Of a DNA stretch of 55,265 bases, positions 8,362 through 18,613 are shown one piece after another. The position numbers were made by a program, and so were the translations under genes. Positions within the stretch are counted from its first letter, which is position 1. The number at the start of each line of letters is the position of its first letter. The stretch spans positions 1 to 55,265 of IMG/VR virus record IMGVR_UViG_3300037264_004101; one strand, 5' to 3'. Under the pieces are notes generated by a model, which searched no databases, had not been told where the DNA came from, and saw only the letters and a program-made list of their open reading frames with translations. Source of the DNA: a virus.

Positions 8362-8378
8362 GATGCCTCCAGAAAGAG

Positions 8379-8411
8379 TGTACCTATACAGTAAGGTACA
8401 TTGCGTGTAAA
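8379..8411 (-). promoter_or_regulatory. Promoter with overlapping palindromic operator
   Basis: On the minus strand, TTTACA (8411-8406), a 17-bp spacer and TATAGG (8388-8383) form a sigma70-type promoter for the HTH gene. An inverted repeat, TGTACCT with AGGTACA (8379-8400, 8-nt centre), covers the -10 box, as expected of a repressor site. Confidence 0.6.
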
Positions 8412-8415
8412 GACC

Positions 8416-8679
8416 TCACGGCCGGAGACCCTGCTCATAGACAGCTTGTGCAATCTGCTCCAGCTCCTCGCGCACCTCGGCCAGCCGTAAGACTCGGCTC
8501 CCGTGTTCGCGCCGTGCTTGCTCGAAGGCGCCTTCATCTTGGACGTAATAATCGCGTCCATTAGGGGCTGCTCTCTCGAGCGCATGTTCAGCGGCTCGCA
8601 GCGCTTCCGTTGCATATTGGAGCTGCACGAGAAGCTCCGCCCCGCTCGTACCGTTCAGATGAACCGTCGGTATGCGCAT
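8416..8679 (-). CDS. Small helical phage protein, fourth gene of the ribozyme operon
   Basis: The 87-residue product starts at ATG 8679 with GGGAGAGAG upstream, almost the same leader as the genes starting at 9861 and 10588. It begins MRIPTVHLNGTSGAELL and continues as a helical protein (YATEALRAAEHALERAAPNGRDYY). That opening is recurrent in phage hypothetical proteins encoded near recombination genes. The function is unknown. It follows hammerhead ribozyme 1 and would be the last cistron released by ribozyme cutting. Confidence 0.7.
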   Translation of the reverse strand: MRIPTVHLNGTSGAELLVQLQYATEALRAAEHALERAAPNGRDYYVQDEGAFEQARREHGSRVLRLAEVREELEQIAQAVYEQGLRP

Positions 8680-8696: not shown

Positions 8697-8769
8697 GCGA
8701 GGAGCGACCTCGGAAAAACCTCATCAGGCCAGGCGCTACCTGGCGACGCGCCGCCGTGGCGCGTTTCGG
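8697..8769 (-). ncRNA. Hammerhead ribozyme 1 (type II, stem II open)
   Basis: The RNA begins two bases after the stop of the 8770-9861 gene. In order it has CC-GAAA (8769-8764), stem III CGCGCC/GGCGCG with loop ACGGC, then U-C (C17 at 8745), stem I GCCAGG-UAGCG-CCUGGC (8744-8728), and CUGAUGA (8727-8721). GG (8720-8719) pairs with the first CC. All invariant core bases of hammerheads are present. Cleavage is predicted between 8745 and 8744. A CGAGG-UCGCU-CCUCG hairpin (8712-8698) follows, before the ribosome site of the next gene. Confidence 0.85.
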
Positions 8770-9861
8770 CTACTGTACGGTCTCAACCTCGCGCCGGCCG
8801 CTGACGAGTTGCCCGGCGAGCTTCTGCAGCTCGAGCTTGCGGTCGGGGTTGTCGACCTTGCCAGCGATCCATGAGAGCGCGTTGCTGGCGCGCCACGTGG
8901 TGTTACCTGCCGGCAAGTTCACGATATCGTCGGATTCGAAAATTTCCTTGGCAGCTTGCAGCTCGCCCTTGAGCAGCTTCTTGGCAATAGCTGAGTTGAT
9001 GTGCTTCCACTCGACCTTGTGCTCGTGCGCCCGTTGGATGCCGGCGCAGAGCTGTTTGATCTTGCGGGGCGCCAGGACCCCGCGCACCACGTCACGCAAG
9101 GCGCTGATGCTGGTCCTGGTATCCAGCTCGTAGGTGCGCTGCGACAGCTCGATGTCCTCTCCCAGCCGGCCGCCGAGGTGCACTTGGGCCAGGGAGTTCT
9201 CCATCGTGGCGCCGTTGAGGCAGGCGACGCGGAGCATGAAGGCTCTCAGAGCGTGAGAGCCCGCACCGAAGTCGCTGTTGTGCCATTCAACCCCGAACGC
9301 CATGACCTCGCCCGGAACTGGCTCGTACACCTGAGGCACGAGGGCCTTGAGCGCCACGCGAGTGTCCGAGCACGTGCCCTCTACGGGAATCGCGCCGACG
9401 GATTGACATTCTTCCGCGAAAGCTTCGAGGAGCGGCCGGCTATCCAGCCGGCGATACCTGTTCGACAGAAAGCCGCGCGCCTGCTCCTGGACCTCACGGA
9501 CCAAGAACCGCGCCGTCGACTGGCCCTGGTGATAGTGGCGGTTCAGCACCTCGGCCGCCAACTCCCCCTGCCAGCCGCCCGCCTCGGCCAGGTCGGCGAG
9601 GTAGGCTCCTGGGATGCCGGCGCGCTGGGCCATCTGCCCCAGCGCGTGCTTGTGCACACCGAGGCGCACGGTGCCGAATCCCAGGCGCAGCTCCTTGTCG
9701 CCCGGCTCGAAGCGCAGCGCCTGGCCACTGAGGACGGTGTCCCGTGGCGCCTCGCGGTGCACGCGGTCGAACAGGTCGAGCGCACTCGTGCGCCCCGTGT
9801 CGATTTTGCTGGCAAGCACCGCCCGTGCTCTACCCGCGGTTTCTTCCGATGGCTGATACAT
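8770..9861 (-). CDS. DUF932-type phage/plasmid protein
   Basis: The 363-residue product matches the DUF932 phage/plasmid-like family in length and in the core segment VQEQARGFLSNRYRRLDSRPLLEAF near residue 135. The family is common in phages and plasmids, and its biochemical role is not settled. The start is ATG 9861 with GGGAGAGAA upstream. The gene is flanked on both sides by hammerhead ribozymes, so it should be expressed from a self-excised single-gene mRNA. Confidence 0.75.
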   Translation of the reverse strand: MYQPSEETAGRARAVLASKIDTGRTSALDLFDRVHREAPRDTVLSGQALRFEPGDKELRLGFGTVRLGVHKHALGQMAQRAGIPGAYLADLAEAGGWQGELAAEVLNRHYHQGQSTARFLVREVQEQARGFLSNRYRRLDSRPLLEAFAEECQSVGAIPVEGTCSDTRVALKALVPQVYEPVPGEVMAFGVEWHNSDFGAGSHALRAFMLRVACLNGATMENSLAQVHLGGRLGEDIELSQRTYELDTRTSISALRDVVRGVLAPRKIKQLCAGIQRAHEHKVEWKHINSAIAKKLLKGELQAAKEIFESDDIVNLPAGNTTWRASNALSWIAGKVDNPDRKLELQKLAGQLVSGRREVETVQ

Positions 9862-9878
9862 GATTCTCTCCCTGGGTT

Positions 9879-9953
9879 GCGAGGAGCTGCCTCGCGTGCC
9901 TCATCAGGCCAGGCGCTACCTGGCGACGCGCGTTTCGGTAACGCGCGTTTCGG
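9879..9953 (-). ncRNA. Hammerhead ribozyme 2 (type II)
   Basis: Directly after the TAA of the 9955-10227 gene come CC-GAAA (9953-9948), stem III CGCGCG/CGCGCG (9947-9942 with 9932-9927, 9-nt loop), U-C (C17 at 9925), stem I GCCAGG-UAGCG-CCUGGC and CUGAUGA-GG (9907-9899). Cleavage is predicted between 9925 and 9924. A following hairpin, GCGAGG-CAGCU-CCUCGC (9895-9879), keeps pairing with different bases from copy 1. Confidence 0.82.
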
Positions 9954-9954
9954 T

Positions 9955-10227
9955 TTACGCCTCGGCGACTTCATCGACCGTGGCTTCATTCTTCTTTGCC
10001 CATTTCTCCAGCGCAGATTCGGAGGCGAACAGGCTGTTGAACTTGCGGCCGGTCGTGCCCTTGGTGCCTTTCGCGCGAATCTTGCCTTGCGGCTTCTTCT
10101 CTTCCTCCTCGGTGTCGTCCTTGGGGGCTTTGTCGCTGAACAGGGTGAGCGCCTTGTGCAGTACCGCCAGGTTCTTCTCCAGCATCTTGATCTCGGCCTT
10201 GAGCGTTTTCACCAGATTTGATTGCAC
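9955..10227 (-). CDS. Small highly charged protein, second gene of the ribozyme operon
   Basis: The 90-residue product starts at GTG 10227 with AGGAGA upstream; reading further upstream runs into ribozyme 3 and is not credible. It has a helical N-terminus (KTLKAEIKMLEKNLAVLHKAL), an acidic then basic low-complexity centre (DDTEEEEKK, KIRAKGTKGTTGRK) and a helical end. The basic stretch suggests nucleic-acid binding. No family was recognised. It lies between ribozymes 3 and 2. Confidence 0.7.
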   Translation of the reverse strand: MQSNLVKTLKAEIKMLEKNLAVLHKALTLFSDKAPKDDTEEEEKKPQGKIRAKGTKGTTGRKFNSLFASESALEKWAKKNEATVDEVAEA

Positions 10228-10245
10228 GGTAGTTCTCCTGTTGAG

Positions 10246-10316
10246 CGAGGAGCGACCTCGGAAAAACCTCATCAGGCCAGGAGCTACCTGGCGACGGGGG
10301 CGGTCCCCCGTTTCGG
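10246..10316 (-). ncRNA. Hammerhead ribozyme 3 (type II)
   Basis: Two bases after the TGA of the 10319-10588 gene come CC-GAAA (10316-10311), stem III CGGGGG/CCCCCG with loop ACCG (10310-10295), U-C (C17 at 10293), stem I GCCAGG-UAGCU-CCUGGC (10292-10276) and CUGAUGA-GG (10275-10267). Stem III differs at most positions from copies 1 and 2 yet is perfectly paired. Cleavage is predicted between 10293 and 10292. The CGAGG-UCGCU-CCUCG hairpin follows (10260-10246). Confidence 0.85.
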
Positions 10317-10318
10317 CG

Positions 10319-10588
10319 TCAACCATTGTCGTATTCAGCACAGTCTGCTGAATGACTGTTGCCAGCCCCGCTCCAGCCCCAGCAGCAGCCGTAGCCGAAA
10401 TCCCACGCAAACCGGTTCGAGGTAATTATCGAGCCATCCTCGAACGTCCATCGAGTATCCCCCTGGGGGCTACGCTCCTTTTTGGCACCCGCATCACTAC
10501 AAGCGGTTCCCAGGCTAACGCCTGTTAGCGATGTGAATCTCTCGCCATCATTGTCAAACATCTCTGCAATTTTCTTCGCCGTGTTCAT
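10319..10588 (-). CDS. Small protein, first gene of the ribozyme operon
   Basis: The 89-residue product starts at ATG 10588 with CAGGGAGAG upstream and a leader of about 30 nt from promoter P1. The N-terminus is helical (NTAKKIAEMFDNDG). The C-terminal half is rich in Trp, Gly and Cys (WDFGYGCCWGWSGAG). It has the look of a small phage host-takeover protein, but no family was recognised. It begins the operon whose three internal junctions are hammerheads. Confidence 0.7.
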   Translation of the reverse strand: MNTAKKIAEMFDNDGERFTSLTGVSLGTACSDAGAKKERSPQGDTRWTFEDGSIITSNRFAWDFGYGCCWGWSGAGNSHSADCAEYDNG

Positions 10589-10617
10589 CGTTCTCTCCCT
10601 GTTTGTTTTGTTGTTCA

Positions 10618-10653
10618 TAATCAAAAGATACTACACACAATGTAGAGAGTCAA
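10618..10653 (-). promoter_or_regulatory. Promoter P1 of the ribozyme operon
   Basis: On the minus strand, TTGACT (10653-10648), a 17-bp spacer and TATCTT (10630-10625) form a strong sigma70-type promoter 30-40 bp before ATG 10588. The spacer contains the near-palindrome CTACA-TTGTG-TGTAG, a possible operator. Confidence 0.7.
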
Positions 10654-10720
10654 GTTTATTTTCACCAAACGTACGATTTTTCACTGCCTCCTTTATATAG
10701 TGCGTATCTACGCGGTTTCC

Positions 10721-10749
10721 CACATACTACATTGAGCGTAACAAGTCAA
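10721..10749 (-). promoter_or_regulatory. Promoter P2, tandem upstream copy
   Basis: TTGACT (10749-10744), a 17-bp spacer and TATGTG (10726-10721) on the minus strand. The end of the spacer (AATGTAG before TATG) resembles that of P1 (TGTGTAG before TATC), which suggests a shared regulator site. Confidence 0.5.
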
Positions 10750-10889
10750 GTCTTTACAGGGAAAGAAGGGGGAAACGCGAGAAGATCGGCGTACAGCTCA
10801 TGTCGCTGAAGTCAAGTCTTTACAGGGAAAGAATAGGGAAACGCGAGGAGGTGGGCGTACGGCTCTTGTCGCTGAAGTCAAGTATATAG
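10745..10889 (-). repeat. 66-bp tandem repeat carrying TTGACT boxes
   Basis: The unit gtcaagtctttacagggaa starts at 10745 and 10811, and its first part recurs at 10877, exactly 66 bp apart. Each unit brings a minus-strand TTGACT box but only a poor -10 (TACGCC). The array may be duplicated promoters that have decayed, or repeated regulator sites. Nothing else that looks like a gene occupies 10589-10901. Confidence 0.7.
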
Positions 10890-10901
10890 CGCTTCGCGAC
10901 G

Positions 10902-11390
10902 CTACTCCTCAACCGCGGCGCCGATTTTCTTGACGCGCCAGAGCGCCAGACCTACGGCGTCGATGACGTTGTGCAGCCGGCTCTTGGCGACGCCGCAATG
11001 AGTGATGTGCTCGCGCTCCTGCGCATCGAGCTGCCTGAGCACCGAGGCGCAGTGCACGTCCTTCGGCCTGGAGCCCTTCCATGCATGAGGCTCGACAAGC
11101 TCGATCACGAATTGTTGCATGAGCGCCTGAGCCACCATACCGGCCGTCACGGCGACTTGGATCAAGTCCGCAGGGTTGCCCTTCCATTGCCGTTGCTGGT
11201 AGACCTTCGGCACTTCGATAATGGCGAACGACGGCCCCCTAGGCTCGAGCTCAGCGACCCACGTGTGCAGACTCCAAGCAAGCTCAGAGCGGCCCTTGTC
11301 GAACTCCCAACCGCAGCGTCGCAGCTTGCCATCTTCCAGAAGCGCCCAACCGAACGAGAGACCTCCAGGGTCGATGCCGATGACGGTCAT
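10902..11390 (-). CDS. RuvC-like Holliday junction resolvase
   Basis: The 162-residue product starts at ATG 11390. It has the RNase H-fold acid set: Asp7 in VIGIDPGG, Glu59 in FAIIEVPK, and Asp144 in HNVIDAVGLALW. RuvC-type enzymes cut four-way DNA junctions with paired nicks. In phages they resolve branched replicative DNA before packaging. Length and motif spacing fit the family. It is the last gene of the replication operon and overlaps the next gene upstream. Confidence 0.85.
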   Translation of the reverse strand: MTVIGIDPGGLSFGWALLEDGKLRRCGWEFDKGRSELAWSLHTWVAELEPRGPSFAIIEVPKVYQQRQWKGNPADLIQVAVTAGMVAQALMQQFVIELVEPHAWKGSRPKDVHCASVLRQLDAQEREHITHCGVAKSRLHNVIDAVGLALWRVKKIGAAVEE

Positions 11391-11548
11391 GGCAGGATCT
11401 TCGCGATGGACACGCAGCGTTTGCAGCGAGGCATTTTCTTCACGACCGCGCCACACGAAGGCCCAGGCTGTCCACACAAAGCCTTCACCCATTGCCCTTC
11501 CACGAAAGCATGAAGCGCTGTTGGGCCAGCGAGCCAGAGCACGGTCAC
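11387..11548 (-). CDS. 53-aa zinc-finger-like protein, copy 1
   Basis: It starts at GTG 11548, overlapping the upstream stop as GTGA, and overlaps the resolvase start. The pattern WLAGPTALHAFVEG..ALCGQPGPSC...CKRC gives one His and four Cys, fitting a small zinc site. Its neighbour at 11545-11706 has the same length and about half the same residues, so they are tandem duplicates. The function is unknown. Confidence 0.65.
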   Translation of the reverse strand: MTVLWLAGPTALHAFVEGQWVKALCGQPGPSCGAVVKKMPRCKRCVSIAKILP

Positions 11549-11706
11549 GGCAGCCTCTTCGCAGCCGCTAAGCAGAGCTTGCAATGCGGCAACGGTTCAC
11601 GAGGCGGCCAGCAAGAGCCTCCCGGCCGGCCGCAAAGACTTTTTTGCCAATGCCCCTGTGCGAAAGCATGCAGTACAGTGCCACCCGCTAGCCAGCAGGG
11701 CCTCAT
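11545..11706 (-). CDS. 53-aa zinc-finger-like protein, copy 2
   Basis: It starts at ATG 11706, overlapping the MazG stop as ATGA. It shows WLAGGTVLHAFAQG..SLCGRPGGSC...CKLC, the same ligand spacing as copy 1, and the same AAK(R/I)LP ending. Small proteins with this His-Cys pattern are widespread in phages and have no assigned role. The copies are directly adjacent, which suggests recent duplication followed by divergence. Confidence 0.65.
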   Translation of the reverse strand: MRPCWLAGGTVLHAFAQGHWQKSLCGRPGGSCWPPREPLPHCKLCLAAAKRLP

Positions 11707-12203
11707 CGCTCTTTCGCTTTCGATCTCTCGACGTCGAAGCCTTGCGGATATCTCTCGCGCAACTTCTGTACGTTCAGCCGGGCGATCTCCGACAGGTCTA
11801 CGTCGAGCATGGCTGTCAACGCCCCTAGATACCAGAGCACGTCTCCAAGCTCGAGCAGAAGCTTGGTTCGCTCCAATGCGTGCCCGTGCCCTAGCCATTT
11901 TTTCACGAGGTCCGCCACCTCCCCCGTCTCGCCCGCGAGACCGAGGGTGGCAATAGCTATGCCCTCAGAAACGCCATGTTTGGCGATCTCCGCAGGGCTG
12001 TGACCCTTGCGGTGCAGCTCTCCCTGTCCACTCACCCACGTCCGTTTTACCTCCTGCTGATATTGGTCGAAGGCGTTTGCCTTCAGAGGTCGTGCGACAA
12101 CTTGCGTTCGCTCTTGCGTTGCGATCTCGCCTTCGCAGCCACACGGCTGGTCAAGCGCCTTGGCCTTGCGGCAGTAAGTGCACAAGATTCGCACCTGCTT
12201 CAC
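11703..12203 (-). CDS. MazG-like nucleotide pyrophosphohydrolase
   Basis: The 166-residue product starts at GTG 12203 (GTGA overlap with the upstream stop). MazG enzymes hydrolyse (d)NTPs or ppGpp-type alarmones. The metal-binding pattern is present: GETGEVADLVKK (Glu92, Glu95) and LLLELGDVLWYLGAL (Glu118, Asp121). The N-terminus adds a four-Cys segment (CTYC...CGC). Residues 61-75 (GELHRKGHSPAEIAK) come from a 49-bp element also found in the polymerase gene and sit in the loop before the catalytic helix. Confidence 0.85.
   Translation of the reverse strand: MKQVRILCTYCRKAKALDQPCGCEGEIATQERTQVVARPLKANAFDQYQQEVKRTWVSGQGELHRKGHSPAEIAKHGVSEGIAIATLGLAGETGEVADLVKKWLGHGHALERTKLLLELGDVLWYLGALTAMLDVDLSEIARLNVQKLRERYPQGFDVERSKAKER
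11977..12025. repeat. 49-bp shared element, copy A (inside mazG-like gene)
   Basis: 47 of 49 bases are identical to 15438-15486. On the coding strand it folds as CCGC-A-AGGG / CCCT-GCGG with loop TCACAG. It is read in the same frame as copy B. Confidence 0.85.
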
Positions 12204-12484
12204 GGTCCACCTATTCCGTTCTGCGACCGGCGCCGCACGCCGACGGTCTCGAAAAGCTCGTTCACCTGCTCGAGCTTGGCCCTCGATTGGATGACCATCA
12301 CCTCGCAATTGGTGGCGCGTGCCTGAGCCTGCTCTAACACCTCGCGCGTGAGCAGCGCCTCCCGCATGGTTGAGTAGGCGAACAGGCCGAACACGAGAGA
12401 CAGCGCCAGCGCCACGAGCAACGTGGTCAGCGTCGCGTAGGCGAACACGCGAGCTGAAATCTCCACGCGCATCGGTGGCGGCAT
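12200..12484 (-). CDS. Single-span membrane protein with coiled coil
   Basis: The product starts at ATG 12484 (GTG 12490, overlapping the upstream stop, is an alternative) and has 94 residues. One clear transmembrane helix, TLTTLLVALALSLVFGLFAY, lies near residues 18-37. It is followed by a helical segment (LLTREVLEQAQARATNCEV). The C-terminus is Arg- and Gly-rich. It could be a membrane anchor or small accessory protein. Its position in the replication operon does not reveal the role. Confidence 0.65.
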   Translation of the reverse strand: MPPPMRVEISARVFAYATLTTLLVALALSLVFGLFAYSTMREALLTREVLEQAQARATNCEVMVIQSRAKLEQVNELFETVGVRRRSQNGIGGP

Positions 12485-12486
12485 GC

Positions 12487-12699
12487 TCACGGCCACGCCC
12501 CATATTTGACCAAGTGCTGAATCGCCGCCGGCCACAAGACAGGGTTGCTTCCGAGGCCGCGCAAGGTCACAACGATTTGCTCCTCGCAGCTCTCGTGCAC
12601 CGAGCCGCGAGGCTCACCAAAGGCTGCCGCAGCTAAGGCGCTGTAGATGCGAATGCCCGTGCTCTTGTCGCAATACGGACAGGGCTTGATCGTGGTCAT
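12487..12699 (-). CDS. Small CPYC zinc-ribbon-like protein
   Basis: The 70-residue product starts at ATG 12699 (ATGA overlap). The N-terminal KPCPYCDKSTG is a classic zinc knuckle, and a further Cys near residue 38 may complete a site. The rest is helical. No family was recognised. It is part of a run of very short overlapping genes between the polymerase and MazG. Confidence 0.65.
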   Translation of the reverse strand: MTTIKPCPYCDKSTGIRIYSALAAAAFGEPRGSVHESCEEQIVVTLRGLGSNPVLWPAAIQHLVKYGAWP

Positions 12700-12992
12700 G
12701 GAGTCGTCCAATGCGCCGGCACGCCCTCGTTTACGTGCAGCTTGAGCCAGCGGTCATACGTGGAATGCACTTCGCCCTTCAGCTTGTCGTAAAGGGCGCA
12801 GGAGTCGCGACAACCCTGAAGCCCGCAAAATTCCCGCCATCGGGCGGAACTCCAGGTCAGAAATTCCCAGGTCTGGAACTCGCGCCCAAGCGCCGCACGA
12901 CACGCAATCCACCGAACGCTGGTCGACGCGTAGCACAACGCCTTCGCCTGCTCCCAGGGGCTTTCGACAGGTGCGGCTTGAGCAAAAGTCAT
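12696..12992 (-). CDS. Small Trp/Cys-rich protein, unknown
   Basis: The 98-residue product starts at ATG 12992, overlapping the polymerase stop as ATGA. It holds eight or more Trp and several Cys, with WREFCGLQGCRDSC in the centre. No known domain was recognised. It is immediately downstream of the polymerase and co-translated with it. Confidence 0.6.
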   Translation of the reverse strand: MTFAQAAPVESPWEQAKALCYASTSVRWIACRAALGREFQTWEFLTWSSARWREFCGLQGCRDSCALYDKLKGEVHSTYDRWLKLHVNEGVPAHWTTP

Positions 12993-15838
12993 TTTGCATC
13001 CTCCCAAGGTATGAGGCGGCCGTCGGCGTCTTTGACCGCCTCGGCTTTCTTACTCCAATGGCGCATGAGCGTCGGCGACGCGCGGGCGGGAACATCGGGT
13101 GTCAGCTCCTCCATCGCCGCGCACATGACGCGCGCCAGCTCAACAGCCGCTTCATGCGCGTACTCCTCAGGAGCCTCGAGCAGAATCTCGTCGTGCAAGA
13201 ACGCCACGGGACGGCAGCCTCCGAGAGGCGATCCCTCGGTACCAGGTGCGCCGTAGCAGGCTTTCGTGACGTCCCAGAGCGCCGATTTGCTCACGTCAGC
13301 GGCGAGCCCTTGGAACAAGGTATTGGCGGCCGACGGGAACGTGCAGCCTCCCCGCAGCCGGCCGGAGTAGAGCTGCTGCATGGTCGCCTCGCCGTTCTCC
13401 GTGAGGTTGCCGATGATTTGAAAATACTCCTTGGCCCAAGGCTCGAACGCGAAATACTGGGCTTTCAACTCCTCCGCTTCCTGCAACGTGAGACTGAGCC
13501 CGTAGCCTTTGGCGTACAGCCGAAAGGTCTTGACGCCCATGCCTCCCGGTATTCCGAAAATACACTGTCCGGTCACGACAGGAATGCCCCCGTCGCGAAC
13601 AAGCACGAATGACGACGGTACAGAGAGACACACAACTTCGCTTCGGTGTTTGCGCCGAGTGGGTTCAAGAGCATCCCCCCGCGTTGCCGAGTGGTCTCCG
13701 ATAGACAGTTTCCAAACGGCCGCGTGCTTTCCTTGAGCTTTGTGGTCAAGCGTCAGTCTCGACTTGTGACCGGACAAGGCAGCGATTGCCTGAAGAACAT
13801 CGGCATTCTGCCTCTTGGTGGTCGAATAGACAAAGCGCCGTCCTTCCTTGCGAACGGATCCATCCCAATGTCTCGCTTCTTCGAGAATCATCTCGCGGTG
13901 CCGCAGAGGTAGATTGATCCACCATTGCGGTAAAGTCTTGTCCACAGTGAGCAAGCGGCGCACTCGGATGGACAGTGTCTTCGAGAGATAGAAGTTCGTC
14001 ACAAGTCTCGGTCGAGATTCGGTCCAACCTTCTACACCCTTCAGCAGTTCCCGCATGCGTTCGATCTTGCGAGTCTTGGTGAAGCCGAGACGAATCCCTG
14101 AACGAGTGAAGCTACCGTCAGCTTGAACAGCTACTGCCAGCCGTAGCATCGACCAGTCCTGTTCACCTCCTGGAAAAGTCCCCGCGCTCATGACACCTGC
14201 CCCCGCCCAGTATCTCGCCTTGGGCAGCTTTTCAGGTGTCGTGACATAGGGGTCGCCGTTCTGGCGAAACCCTAGCATACGATGGTCGGGAGTAACCTTT
14301 AGGTCGATACCTTTGTTCTTGAGATGCACAAGCTCGCCCGTAGGTGCTTTTCTTCGCGTCAAAGCCGTAGGTCGTTCCCAGGCAATCACACATTCGCCGT
14401 CACGTTGAGGATAGGCAGCAGCTACCTCGTCCTCGTAAGTGAGTTGCCCTATCCTCTGCCATCCTCGAGTACGGGTCAGAATCTCCGTGTCAGGATGGAA
14501 GCATGCCTTGGCTCTCTGGCGCCACGCGAGCATGTCGGCATCCTTGGCCTTCTTGCGAGCCAGTGCCTCGGCATACTCGATTTTGAGAAGATGCGCGGCG
14601 AACGCGGTATGGGCATCGAACGCGGGGTCTTGTTGAAACTGCTCGGCCAGGTGAGACCGACCGACCGTCCTCGTGAGGACTTGGGCGAACGTGCGTACCT
14701 CTTGGTTATCGAAGTCGCAGGCGACGAAGACCCTGCCAGGACGGGCCACGAAGCACTCACGCACGCCAGGCTCTCTAGGCTGCTGTTGAATCGCAGGTTG
14801 TCGCGCACTCGTGCGCCCCGTGTTCGCCCCGAGCACGTCATAGTCGGCATGGATCGGCAAAGAACCTGCTGCCTCGAGCTTCTCCACGAAGGCGCCAAGC
14901 TGCTTCTCGGCGTGCGCGTATTCGATCAAAGCATCGAGCGCGGGGTGGTCGCATTGCTCCAGCACCGCTGCGCTGGTCTGAATCGAGTGCTTGGGAGTGA
15001 GAGGCACCTCGCCTTCGCCTGCCCACGTCTTCTCCACAAGGTCGCGGATGGCTGCCAGCTTCTTCGATCCCTTCTTGGGATCGACCAATCCCGCTTGTAG
15101 CAGGACTCGGTGCTTTTCTGAAATCGTCTGGGCCAGCCGGCCGCGCAGCTCCCTCACGCGGGCTTGGTCGGTCGTGAGGCCCCAGCAACGCATGAGCTGA
15201 AACGCGAAGGCGTAGGCGGCCTGCCTGCCACACTCGGCGGTCCACATATCGTAGGGCCTGCCGCCGTACAATGTCCGCTTGACCTCGGCCTCCTGATGCT
15301 CCCACACCGAATAAGTGACCCCCGCATCGGTGAGCGCGTATTCTCTAGCGCCCTGGGGCCATTGCCATAGCGGCATGCCGTCGAGGGACTGGTAGTTGAG
15401 CCGCCAGGTCTCTTTGTCCAAAGTGAGGCCGATACGTTGTTTGGCGATCTCCGCAAGGCTGTGACCTTTGCGGTGCAGCTCTCCCTCCGCGTCTTCCGTG
15501 AACCGGCTGCCACGTGCGATGTCAATCAAGCGCTCTCGAATGCGCGTGCATTGCACGGCGAGGTTGTCGTAGGCGCGCCAGACCACGCGACCGACGGCGC
15601 CTTGAAGCTCTCCATCGTAGTTCAAGGCGCACGCCAGATCGTAAGCAATGTTGTGACCGACGAGCAGCTCGGACTCCTTCTCGCCTGCCTGCTGTAGCGT
15701 CTCGATCAAACGCCCGAGCCCTTCCTGCCGGTCGTAGAGCGTAGCGGTCATCTCGGTTGACTCGCTCACGCATACTATGGGCGGCGCCATGCTCCCTGGC
15801 TTGAACAGGTGCGTTTCGGTATCGAAAGCTGTTATCAC
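12989..15838 (-). CDS. Family A DNA polymerase with 3'-5' exonuclease, interrupted by an intein
   Basis: The 949-residue precursor starts at GTG 15838 with AAAGG upstream. Residues 1-200 are a DnaQ-like proofreading domain (FDTE at 5-8, NIAYD near 63-67, YALTDAG near 167-173). The polymerase part shows TGRTSARQPAIQQQPR (340-355), motif A CDFDNQEVR (Asp375) and motif C LHDEILLEAP (Asp883). Residues 446-758 are an intein placed inside motif B, between QRAKA and CIFGIPGGMG, where the fingers helix contacts the incoming nucleotide. The enzyme is therefore inactive until spliced to 636 residues. The exonuclease domain carries copy B of the 49-bp element. Confidence 0.93.
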   Translation of the reverse strand: MITAFDTETHLFKPGSMAPPIVCVSESTEMTATLYDRQEGLGRLIETLQQAGEKESELLVGHNIAYDLACALNYDGELQGAVGRVVWRAYDNLAVQCTRIRERLIDIARGSRFTEDAEGELHRKGHSLAEIAKQRIGLTLDKETWRLNYQSLDGMPLWQWPQGAREYALTDAGVTYSVWEHQEAEVKRTLYGGRPYDMWTAECGRQAAYAFAFQLMRCWGLTTDQARVRELRGRLAQTISEKHRVLLQAGLVDPKKGSKKLAAIRDLVEKTWAGEGEVPLTPKHSIQTSAAVLEQCDHPALDALIEYAHAEKQLGAFVEKLEAAGSLPIHADYDVLGANTGRTSARQPAIQQQPREPGVRECFVARPGRVFVACDFDNQEVRTFAQVLTRTVGRSHLAEQFQQDPAFDAHTAFAAHLLKIEYAEALARKKAKDADMLAWRQRAKACFHPDTEILTRTRGWQRIGQLTYEDEVAAAYPQRDGECVIAWERPTALTRRKAPTGELVHLKNKGIDLKVTPDHRMLGFRQNGDPYVTTPEKLPKARYWAGAGVMSAGTFPGGEQDWSMLRLAVAVQADGSFTRSGIRLGFTKTRKIERMRELLKGVEGWTESRPRLVTNFYLSKTLSIRVRRLLTVDKTLPQWWINLPLRHREMILEEARHWDGSVRKEGRRFVYSTTKRQNADVLQAIAALSGHKSRLTLDHKAQGKHAAVWKLSIGDHSATRGDALEPTRRKHRSEVVCLSVPSSFVLVRDGGIPVVTGQCIFGIPGGMGVKTFRLYAKGYGLSLTLQEAEELKAQYFAFEPWAKEYFQIIGNLTENGEATMQQLYSGRLRGGCTFPSAANTLFQGLAADVSKSALWDVTKACYGAPGTEGSPLGGCRPVAFLHDEILLEAPEEYAHEAAVELARVMCAAMEELTPDVPARASPTLMRHWSKKAEAVKDADGRLIPWEDAK
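13565..14503 (-). mobile_element. Intein with LAGLIDADG-type endonuclease in the polymerase O-helix
   Basis: The 313-residue insert begins CFHPDTEILT (block A, nucleophile Cys) and has TPDHRML (block B-like). Its two dodecapeptide-like motifs, LAVAVQADGSF and EEARHWDGSV, are typical of DOD homing endonucleases. It ends IPVVTGQ before the +1 Cys. The penultimate Gly and final Gln replace the usual His-Asn, a rare but known C-terminal variant. The site in motif B is a favoured insertion point in phage polymerases. Confidence 0.9.
15438..15486. repeat. 49-bp shared element, copy B (inside polymerase exonuclease domain)
   Basis: It matches 11977-12025 except for two bases, which lie opposite each other in the predicted hairpin (AAGG/CCTT instead of AGGG/CCCT). 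It encodes GELHRKGHSLAEIAK, and this context looks natural for a PolA exonuclease domain. Confidence 0.85.
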
Positions 15839-15910
15839 GCAAGAGCCTTTTGAAATGCGCGTCTCTCCGCGCTGTCACGCCTAGCAAGCCGGCGTTCGCA
15901 AAAAATGTGC

Positions 15911-16474
15911 TTAGAAGGGAATCTCTTCGTGAGTCCCAATACCGGCCGCGATTCGCAGCTCGGCAGCCTTCGCCTGAGTCTCGTCCGCGACCGGATACCA
16001 CCAATGCTTGGTGAACTCCTTGCCAGTCTTCTGGCTGACCTTCGTGAAGCATTCCAACTTCAGCAGCCGTCCACGCACCGGCTGTCCAACTGATGACATG
16101 CCTTCGATACTGAGCACCGAAGCCAGTTCATCGTCTGTCAAAGGTCTGCCAACAAGCTTTCCGAACCACGCTTGCGCCGAAGCCACGCTCGGGAACAAGG
16201 CGTTGATGAACCTCTTACAATCGTCGGCCGAGGGAGCGTGCAGCGAGTTGAGAATCTGGCTCACTCCTCTCGTGCCTGCAGGGCGCGACGGGACATTGCT
16301 CTGAATGATATCGAACACGAGCGCAACCATCTCCACCCCTTCCCTTCCCGGCTTCGTGCTCTGAAAGAACTTGAACTGGTCGAGCTGGACCAGAGGGTAG
16401 TTACCCTGCTCGAAGAAAATACCCGTGTTATCGTTGGGGGTTGCTTCTGCGACTCTTTGAGCGAACATAGACAT
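15911..16474 (-). CDS. Putative single-stranded DNA-binding protein
   Basis: The 187-residue product starts at ATG 16474 with AAGGAG 6 nt upstream. The N-terminal half is beta-rich with GIFFEQGNYPLVQLDQFKF, a pattern common to phage ssDNA-binding (DUF669-like or OB-fold) proteins. The extreme C-terminus, THEEIPF, resembles the acidic protein-interaction tip of SSB. It lies just upstream of the polymerase, as expected for a replisome part. No family match was tested. Confidence 0.55.
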   Translation of the reverse strand: MSMFAQRVAEATPNDNTGIFFEQGNYPLVQLDQFKFFQSTKPGREGVEMVALVFDIIQSNVPSRPAGTRGVSQILNSLHAPSADDCKRFINALFPSVASAQAWFGKLVGRPLTDDELASVLSIEGMSSVGQPVRGRLLKLECFTKVSQKTGKEFTKHWWYPVADETQAKAAELRIAAGIGTHEEIPF

Positions 16475-16510
16475 TCAAAACTCCTTGCGCGTTCGCGCCT
16501 TGTGCGGTGC

Positions 16511-16810
16511 CTAAGCCAGGTCTTCCTTCTCGGCGAACCAAGCGGGCACGTAGAACCTCTGCTCTCCTGTAAGGTCTCTTCCTTCAGAGAGCAATACTGA
16601 TTTGGGGATCCATACCTTCTGCCCCATGAAGCCGGGCGTGATCTCGAACAGGACGGCCTTGAGCGTTTCGGTGCGGCGAGTGTGGAAGGCGATACCCACA
16701 GGCTCTTGCTGGCGCTCGCGCTCCTCTGTCGCGCAGTCCCGGCAAACATCATAGTCCTCGCCTTTCCATCCGTCGCATTCGGGACAGGTGTTCTCGAGCT
16801 TCAAAGGCAT
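16511..16810 (-). CDS. Zinc-ribbon protein, unknown role
   Basis: The 99-residue product starts at ATG 16810 with GAGG upstream. CPEC near residue 9 and CRDC near 23 form a probable four-Cys zinc site. The C-terminal half is a small beta-rich domain (KVWIPKSVLL, RFYVPAWFAEKEDL). The context is between the helicase and the SSB candidate. It may modulate replication, but no function is assigned. Confidence 0.65.
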   Translation of the reverse strand: MPLKLENTCPECDGWKGEDYDVCRDCATEERERQQEPVGIAFHTRRTETLKAVLFEITPGFMGQKVWIPKSVLLSEGRDLTGEQRFYVPAWFAEKEDLA

Positions 16811-16822
16811 TCGTTACCTCTT

Positions 16823-18613
16823 TCAAACATCGACGTTCGCATACAAGAGCTTCTGTCGTGCCCCCGTGGTTTCCTCGATATACCGGGCGTCGGCTCGAGC
16901 GCGGTCGAAGCCGGCAGCAAGCTCGTCGGTGTGCAGGTAGATTTCGCAGCACACCTCGTCGGCGAGTTGACCGGGGCGGTGCGTGCGCCCAAGCAGCTGC
17001 TCGAACGTTTTACCGCTCGGAGGGCAGGACACGAGCAGGTTCTTGCTCCAGTGCTGCAGGTTCTTGCCTTCGCTGTGCGCACGGATACTGGCGATGACAG
17101 GGCCGCGAGCATCAAGGATGTTGGCCGAGGCTCCCATGCCGGCTCCGAAGTAGGGATAACCGCTCAGCGCGGCCAAACGTTCACCGACAGCGATGTGCTC
17201 AATCCAGCAGATGCCGCCCTCGCCGTCGCGTTCGCGGTCGCGCATCCACGAAATGGCGTCTTCGAGGGCGAAGTCAGAAAGCCATTCAGGCACCGTGTTT
17301 GGTTTGAAGCTGTCGCGGATCTCTCGCCATTCGCGCCATGCCGAAGGCTGCGGATCCTGGCGCTCGGCGTCTCCGGCGACCAGAAGCTCGCTATCGAGAC
17401 CTCGGCGATTGTGCTCTAGCGTGTCACGCACGTAGCGCTTCCAGGCTTTACGAGCTTCAAGCCAGTCTTCAGGCGCAGGGGGCTGCCACTTGTAGAAAAA
17501 CCCACAAGCCAGCTCGCGTGCATGCCGCCAAAGCTCTACGGCCTCGGTAATCGTGTCGCCGTTCGGCGTCTCCCAGGTGGCGCGCATCTGCGCGAGCTTG
17601 CGCCCGACGTCATCCGGCAGGCGCAAGGGTCTGCGAAGGATCGACAGCGAGACCCCTAGCTCGCTCTCGCTGGTAGCCACGACACCGAGGGTCTGCACCA
17701 AGCGTCGCCGATATCCGTCCCTTGCCGTCTCCTTGGGATTGGCGGGGTCGCAGAGCTCGAGCAGCGCTCCTGGTTCGGCGCGGACCTGAACATCTGCATC
17801 GAGGGCATCGGCCCAGCACGCCATCTCACGCCACGTGCGCGGCATTGGTGCCAAGCCGCCCTTGAGCGCCCAGAGCAGGAGGTGCCAATAGTCCTTCAAA
17901 CTCTTGCGCGTCACGGTGCCAGACATCGCGGCGACTCTGACCTGCTGGTTCTCGCGCAGGTATTCCTTCAACCGCTTCGTTCGAGCGGTTGAAGGAGCTT
18001 TGACCGCATGCGCTTCGTCGAGCACGATGAGGTCGGGCTTGAGTCGAAAGAGCATGTCCTTGTTCTTCGCCAGACTCAGTTCGCTGTAGCCACGAACCTG
18101 CAGGCCGCTGTGCAGCCTCCAATGCTTGCGCATCTCGGGAATGACCTTGCGAAGAGTCTGGTCGCGGAGCTGTGCCGGCACGAGCAACAGCGGCCGCTCG
18201 GCACCGAGGACCACGGGAGCGAGCAAGCTGATGAGCGCCTTCCCTCGGCCGACACCGATGGGGCCGAAGAAGCCTCCCGTCGTGACCATCTCAATGAGCG
18301 CCACGACTTGCGTGTCCCACAAGCGCATGACGCTGTTCGGCAGCCGAAGCCATTCTTCCAAGCCCGCGCGTGCTTCTTCGATGGAAGGGTCTTTCTCCCA
18401 TTCGCGGCGCGGGAGCTTTGCGATGCGCTCGAACTCGTTGCTGCGGACGACACCGTAGTGTCGAATGAGTTTCGACACGGCCGAAGCGGCATGGGCATCT
18501 TCTATAGCACCGCTCGACACGACGGCACGCAAGAACGTGTCTCGCTTGTTGCTCTGAATCTGTCCCAACAGCCGCGCGCCCGAGTCTCCCAGGCCCGCTG
18601 CTATCCTGACCAC
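16823..18613 (-). CDS. Superfamily 2 DNA helicase
   Basis: The 596-residue product starts at GTG 18613. The SF2 motifs are in order: a Walker A variant GPIGVGRGKAL (Lys125), VLDEAHAV (residues 197-204), AMSGT (229-233), and motif VI LLGRTHRPGQ near residue 553. Snf2/phage-type helicases of this build unwind or translocate on duplex DNA using ATP. The Walker A Gly-Arg-Gly-Lys form is slightly unusual. It lies 3 bp downstream of the Fe-S nuclease gene, suggesting a joint helicase-nuclease task in replication or recombination. Confidence 0.85.
   Translation of the reverse strand: MVRIAAGLGDSGARLLGQIQSNKRDTFLRAVVSSGAIEDAHAASAVSKLIRHYGVVRSNEFERIAKLPRREWEKDPSIEEARAGLEEWLRLPNSVMRLWDTQVVALIEMVTTGGFFGPIGVGRGKALISLLAPVVLGAERPLLLVPAQLRDQTLRKVIPEMRKHWRLHSGLQVRGYSELSLAKNKDMLFRLKPDLIVLDEAHAVKAPSTARTKRLKEYLRENQQVRVAAMSGTVTRKSLKDYWHLLLWALKGGLAPMPRTWREMACWADALDADVQVRAEPGALLELCDPANPKETARDGYRRRLVQTLGVVATSESELGVSLSILRRPLRLPDDVGRKLAQMRATWETPNGDTITEAVELWRHARELACGFFYKWQPPAPEDWLEARKAWKRYVRDTLEHNRRGLDSELLVAGDAERQDPQPSAWREWREIRDSFKPNTVPEWLSDFALEDAISWMRDRERDGEGGICWIEHIAVGERLAALSGYPYFGAGMGASANILDARGPVIASIRAHSEGKNLQHWSKNLLVSCPPSGKTFEQLLGRTHRPGQLADEVCCEIYLHTDELAAGFDRARADARYIEETTGARQKLLYANVDV

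Follow-up and report, generated by a model that had tools for sequence, protein, structure and literature searches.

Three short elements, each lying in one of the gaps between four consecutive genes of a viral genome, raise two questions: are they genuine type II hammerhead ribozymes, and what would they do to the RNA in which they are embedded? The window, i.e. the whole stretch of 55,265 nucleotides analysed here, is a complete IMG/VR virus record, with the genes for portal, terminase, capsid, tape measure and baseplate on one strand and those for replication on the opposite strand. The host of the three elements is a tailed phage, for which no close relatives by DNA were found among phage records.

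Three elements in the gaps of a four-gene unit

By sequence inspection, the minus strand carries the same order of segments in each element, CC-GAAA-stem III-UC-stem I-CUGAUGA-GG, which in copy A (10267..10316) reads CC-GAAA-CGGGGGACCGCCCCCG-UC-GCCAGGUAGCUCCUGGC-CUGAUGA-GG; copy B lies at 9899..9953 and copy C at 8719..8769, on the same strand. The core CUGAUGA...GAAA...UH, located at a three-way junction, is identical in the three copies, and in all of them stems I and III are closed by loops and stem II is open, in the order II-GAAA-III-UH-I-CUGAUGA-II. We searched both strands of the window with a descriptor made of GAAA, UH and CUGAUGA, stems I and III of at least 4 bp and a stem II of at least 2 bp. 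Exactly three matches were found, copies A, B and C, while 200 simulated 55 kb sequences with the dinucleotide content of the window gave none; a preliminary description of this DNA had placed three minus-strand elements at precisely these positions, and its cut points agree with the position predicted here, after C17 (10293/10292 in copy A, 9925/9924 in copy B and 8745/8744 in copy C). According to the descriptor, stem III has 7-9 bp, stem I 6-7 bp and stem II 2-4 bp; the longest stem III is that of copy B (9 bp, A-U pairs included), and loop I consists of five nucleotides.

Alignment revealed hardly any difference between the copies in stem I, core and tail. Stem III had been described as completely different in each copy, and this had been read as strong covariation, a claim that proved overstated. 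Copies B (at 9.9k) and C (at 8.7k) have the first five pairs in common and differ at pair 6, copies A (at 10.3k) and C differ at pairs 3, 5 and 6, all of them C-G to G-C swaps, and the mean difference over the three pairwise comparisons is only 1.33 of the first five pairs. The three window copies alone are therefore weak evidence of covariation, and the real covariation comes from relatives, as discussed in the next section. An identical copy of the window stem I was searched for in genome contigs, and none was found.

All four genes are on the minus strand, and the order stop codon, ribozyme, ribosome binding site (RBS) is found in all three copies. Gene 1 (10319..10588, 89 aa) has its stop codon (10319-10321) 2 nt before copy A, gene 2 (9955..10227, 90 aa, GTG start) has it (9955-9957) 1 nt before copy B, and that of gene 3 (8770..9861, 363 aa; stop codon 8770-8772) abuts copy C, at 0 nt. 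From the end of the ribozyme to the next start codon there are 39 nt after copy A (10227), 37 nt after copy B (9861) and 39 nt after copy C (8679), where gene 4 begins (8416..8679, 87 aa). Gaps of 0-2 nt and 37-39 nt confirm the earlier placement of the elements just past a stop codon and ahead of the next RBS. The four genes, predicted as ORFs, are without known function: comparison with phrogs, pfam and ncbifam gave no family match for genes 1 and 4 and no confident one for gene 2, and gene 3 belongs to phrog_1362 (unknown function). The 363-aa protein of gene 3 has distant relatives in a few phages, with 35% identity at best, and no close relative of it was found in IMG/VR.

The unit is part of a longer series of genes on the minus strand; neither the upstream gap (10589-10901) nor the downstream one (8362-8415) contains a ribozyme. 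Upstream of gene 1 a sigma-70-like promoter, TTGACT-17-TATCTT (10625..10653, minus strand), was detected by consensus scan only, one site being found where 1.4 are expected by chance. Just past gene 4 (window 8379-8406, minus strand) there is a promoter-like site, TTTACA-17-TATAGG, that overlaps with a hairpin (TGTACC...GGTACA) whose tail is rich in T, and this stretch could end the four-gene unit or start the next. With a promoter-like site before gene 1 and, after gene 4, a stretch that resembles a promoter or a terminator, a four-gene operon read as a single transcript is plausible, although these signals, the only bounds of the unit, are weak. The upstream gap, 313 nt long, also contains two 66-nt tandem repeat units, 89% identical (window 10743-10874), each with a TTGACTTCAGCGACA box on the minus strand; they are perhaps phage promoter or operator repeats.

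Covariance models, covariation in relatives and the small loop I

The comparison with Rfam suggested in the preliminary description gave a divided answer. All three copies match RF02276 (Hammerhead_II), with 33.7 bits for copy B, 30.3 for copy C and 26.7 for copy A, but none of the three reaches the gathering score of 37 bits, which is a curated detection cut-off and not a structural definition; apart from these sub-threshold matches, Rfam found nothing else of note in the window. The core and stems I and III of all three copies align to the model (33.7 bits being the best full-length match). The model however has a 10-nt stretch against the five nucleotides of loop I in the window copies, and an AGCC tail (the pseudoknot strand) that they do not have. 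We also used a covariance model, R1, derived from 14 phage elements outside the window, all having a stem I hairpin of 17 nt. With R1, copy C scored 65.5 bits (E 1.3e-17), copy A 64.3 bits (E 3.1e-17) and copy B 60.7 bits (E 3.9e-16), and the next-best match in the window had an E of 0.27. The search pattern behind R1 took its core letters from the window, so that the core match is partly built in, but the pairing and the covariation are not.

A scan of IMG/VR with CGAAAC-GUCGCC-GGCCUGAUGAG spacings gave 114 stretches. In the 14 relatives on which R1 is based, 98.6% of cells pair and 51 cells show double changes, versus 14.8 after shuffling; the double changes are located at 10 of 15 pairs, slid controls fail, and the second pair of stem II occurs as UA, AU, GC and CG. 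Window copies and the 14 relatives alike retain the invariant single-stranded core without any change. Since these 14 elements had been picked by a pairing descriptor, a further test was run without one, on 126 distinct elements found by a pattern in which nothing but the core and the inner pairs is prescribed. At least three further stem III pairs were present in 89% of these elements (12% in a control with the halves exchanged), and the second stem II pair was kept in 113 of the 126 (42% in the control). Copies within one phage differ by compensatory changes. Position is conserved as well: in related contigs, 78% of 184 descriptor matches have a stop codon no more than 10 nt away, compared with 9% of random positions, and the arrangement of stop codon, ribozyme and RBS recurs in many phage contigs. 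Core, all three stems, the match to a covariance model from other contigs and the covariation in relatives thus uphold the type II hammerhead identity given in the preliminary description. The three elements are real and well formed, and very probably active.

The window copies belong to a subclass with a small loop I and without the usual pseudoknot between loop I and the tail, the complementarity between these two segments being only 2-3 nt. A pseudoknot of at least 4 bp was found in none of 39 elements with a loop I of up to 6 nt, whereas elements with a larger loop I have one in 70% of cases, versus 32% after shuffling. The small-loop-I class is under-detected by Rfam. The type II hammerheads of contigs L034, L027, L010 and L063 score 29-36 with Hammerhead_II, and a subclass that falls below the cut-off points to an under-count of these ribozymes in the annotation of phages. 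R1 copies were also counted per contig, with 12 in L141, 8 in L143 and 7 in L144, and none of these reaches the Rfam gathering score.

Between ribozyme and RBS all three window copies have a CGAGG-N5-CCUCG hairpin, recognized by sequence, copy alignment and hairpin scan on the minus strand: CGAGG-UCGCU-CCUCG after copy C (8697..8712) and again at about 10245-10260, and a version with a CAGCU loop at about 9880-9896. Loop I (UAGCG/UAGCU) and the loop of this hairpin (UCGCU/CAGCU) share 3-4 complementary bases in each copy. A kissing contact between the two loops was considered and left unproven; by inspection, among small-loop relatives that have a downstream hairpin, it is not kept in L019 and L034 and is only weak in L109. 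A pattern scan of phages for the hairpin sequence gave 21 matches, none of which is a hammerhead in the descriptor list.

Probable cutting at the gene junctions and alternative readings

We consider it likely that genuine type II hammerheads cut the four-gene RNA into four single-gene mRNAs with hairpin ends. The nascent RNA would be cleaved after C17 in each copy. Hammerheads leave a 2',3'-cyclic phosphate and a 5'-OH, and the upstream product would carry the former at its 3' end and the downstream product the latter at its 5' end. Since only stem II spans the cut, each product would keep a hairpin at its new end, the upstream one stem III at its very 3' end and the downstream one stem I at its very 5' end. 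The likely benefit would be independent stability and translation of each mRNA, and we infer that the hairpins protect both new ends. Compensatory changes together with placement at the junctions are what selection for cutting at each junction would leave. Cleavage in the window phage is very probable by analogy, and the most probable function is to cut the mRNA between genes, which matches the published prophage clusters discussed below.

A less probable reading, to which we give limited weight, is that the elements are hammerheads by descent which cut slowly or fold conditionally, so that they act mainly as structured 3' and 5' spacers or as regulated switches, their cutting being not constitutive but dependent on ribosomes, competing folds or Mg2+. 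The loop I-tail pseudoknot, common but not universal, speeds many type II hammerheads, and the window copies, lacking it, may therefore cut more slowly. A ribosome that terminates at the stop codon moreover covers, with its footprint, the start of the ribozyme in each case. In nearest-neighbour folding, stems I and III are favoured, a stem II of 2 bp is not, and competing folds are predicted for copy A as well as for copy B; in the minimum free energy fold predicted for copy A, its stem I strand can base-pair with the RBS that lies downstream (GGUAGCUCCUG with CAGGAGAACUACC). However, this stem I-leader pairing is not clearly unusual, since 20-79 of 1000 shuffles are as good, and masking of the RBS by stem I of copy A was rejected as little better than shuffles. 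Release of the RBS by cutting was also rejected, the predicted accessibility being 0.38 before and 0.39 after cutting and unchanged also in four relatives. As for the missing pseudoknot, many hammerheads without it were reported by Perreault et al. 2011 (PMC3088659).

A different relation between ribozyme and RBS was observed in contigs L064, L141 and L097. Their type II hammerheads carry CUGAUGAGGUGCC and are then followed by a start codon, 8-11 nt past the core, with a Shine-Dalgarno-like GAGGUG inside the 3' strand of stem II. The pairing partner of GAGGUG is a GGCA that precedes GAAA, so that in these contigs the RBS might be freed by cutting; the predicted RBS accessibility showed no difference before and after cutting.

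The near identity of stem I, core and tail in the three copies and the variety of gene contexts could also be expected of mobile or recombinational modules, whose ribozyme activity would serve the spread of the element and not mRNA processing. We regard this as very unlikely, given that no retroelement, integrase or target duplication was seen at the copies, that the position from stop codon to RBS is constant, and that the differences between copies of the same phage are compensatory. A chance resemblance to hammerheads of what would be ordinary hairpins between genes, terminators or attenuators, is still harder to believe, in spite of the two GC-rich hairpins in each element and the U-runs after two copies, because the exact core recurs in three copies and 14 relatives, none of the 200 simulations reproduces it, and the U-run is placed after stem II and not directly behind a hairpin.

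Prophage clusters and a 24-ribozyme array

Since 2011, clusters of type II hammerheads have been known to occur between genes of phages, and the window triple joins them. In prophages, Perreault et al. 2011 (PMC3088659) found individual genes surrounded by such clusters, and they showed that clusters of this kind, the ardA-flanking triple of Agrobacterium tumefaciens among them, are cleaved in vitro and in E. coli. As in clusters of this type, the window has several copies flanking single genes of one putative transcript, and its type II form, same core and short stem II are described as common in prophage clusters (PMC3088659). The window differs from them in its genes, in the occupation of every gap of the unit, in the five-nucleotide loop I without a loop I-tail pseudoknot, and in the extra hairpin between ribozyme and RBS. 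It would add a clean example of a little-studied form of phage gene control, an operon cut by built-in ribozymes.

The more surprising object is an array of 24 type II hammerheads in 7.6 kb of another phage contig (L140:1433-9021, corresponding to IMGVR_UViG_3300017605_000570 about 9940-17518), all on one strand and all above the Rfam cut-off. No published array of this size was found in the literature searched, largely open-access papers. As in the window, the hammerheads lie between a stop codon and an RBS; unlike the window, there are 24 copies instead of 3, loop I is large with an AGCC tail, and the genes are mostly of 26-119 aa. It is possible, and we propose it only tentatively, that a set of phages uses a general expression strategy in which a ribozyme follows every gene, up to at least 24 in a row, and yields hairpin-closed single-gene mRNAs, and that the window's subclass, largely missed by Rfam, combines a small loop with a tertiary contact other than the pseudoknot, perhaps with the loop of the downstream hairpin. 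The related contigs, above all this array, make the mRNA-splitting proposal of 2011 directly testable.

The array looks like a series of genes separated by ribozymes, and its layout fits cutting gene by gene. A single ORF fills 22 of the 23 intervals between ribozymes, starting close past one ribozyme, typically at 17-20 nt, and stopping within a few nucleotides of the next; the ORFs encode 26-119 aa, with one of 342 aa, so that some 22 small genes are separated in this way. A TTGACT-N17-like promoter lies ahead of the first ribozyme.
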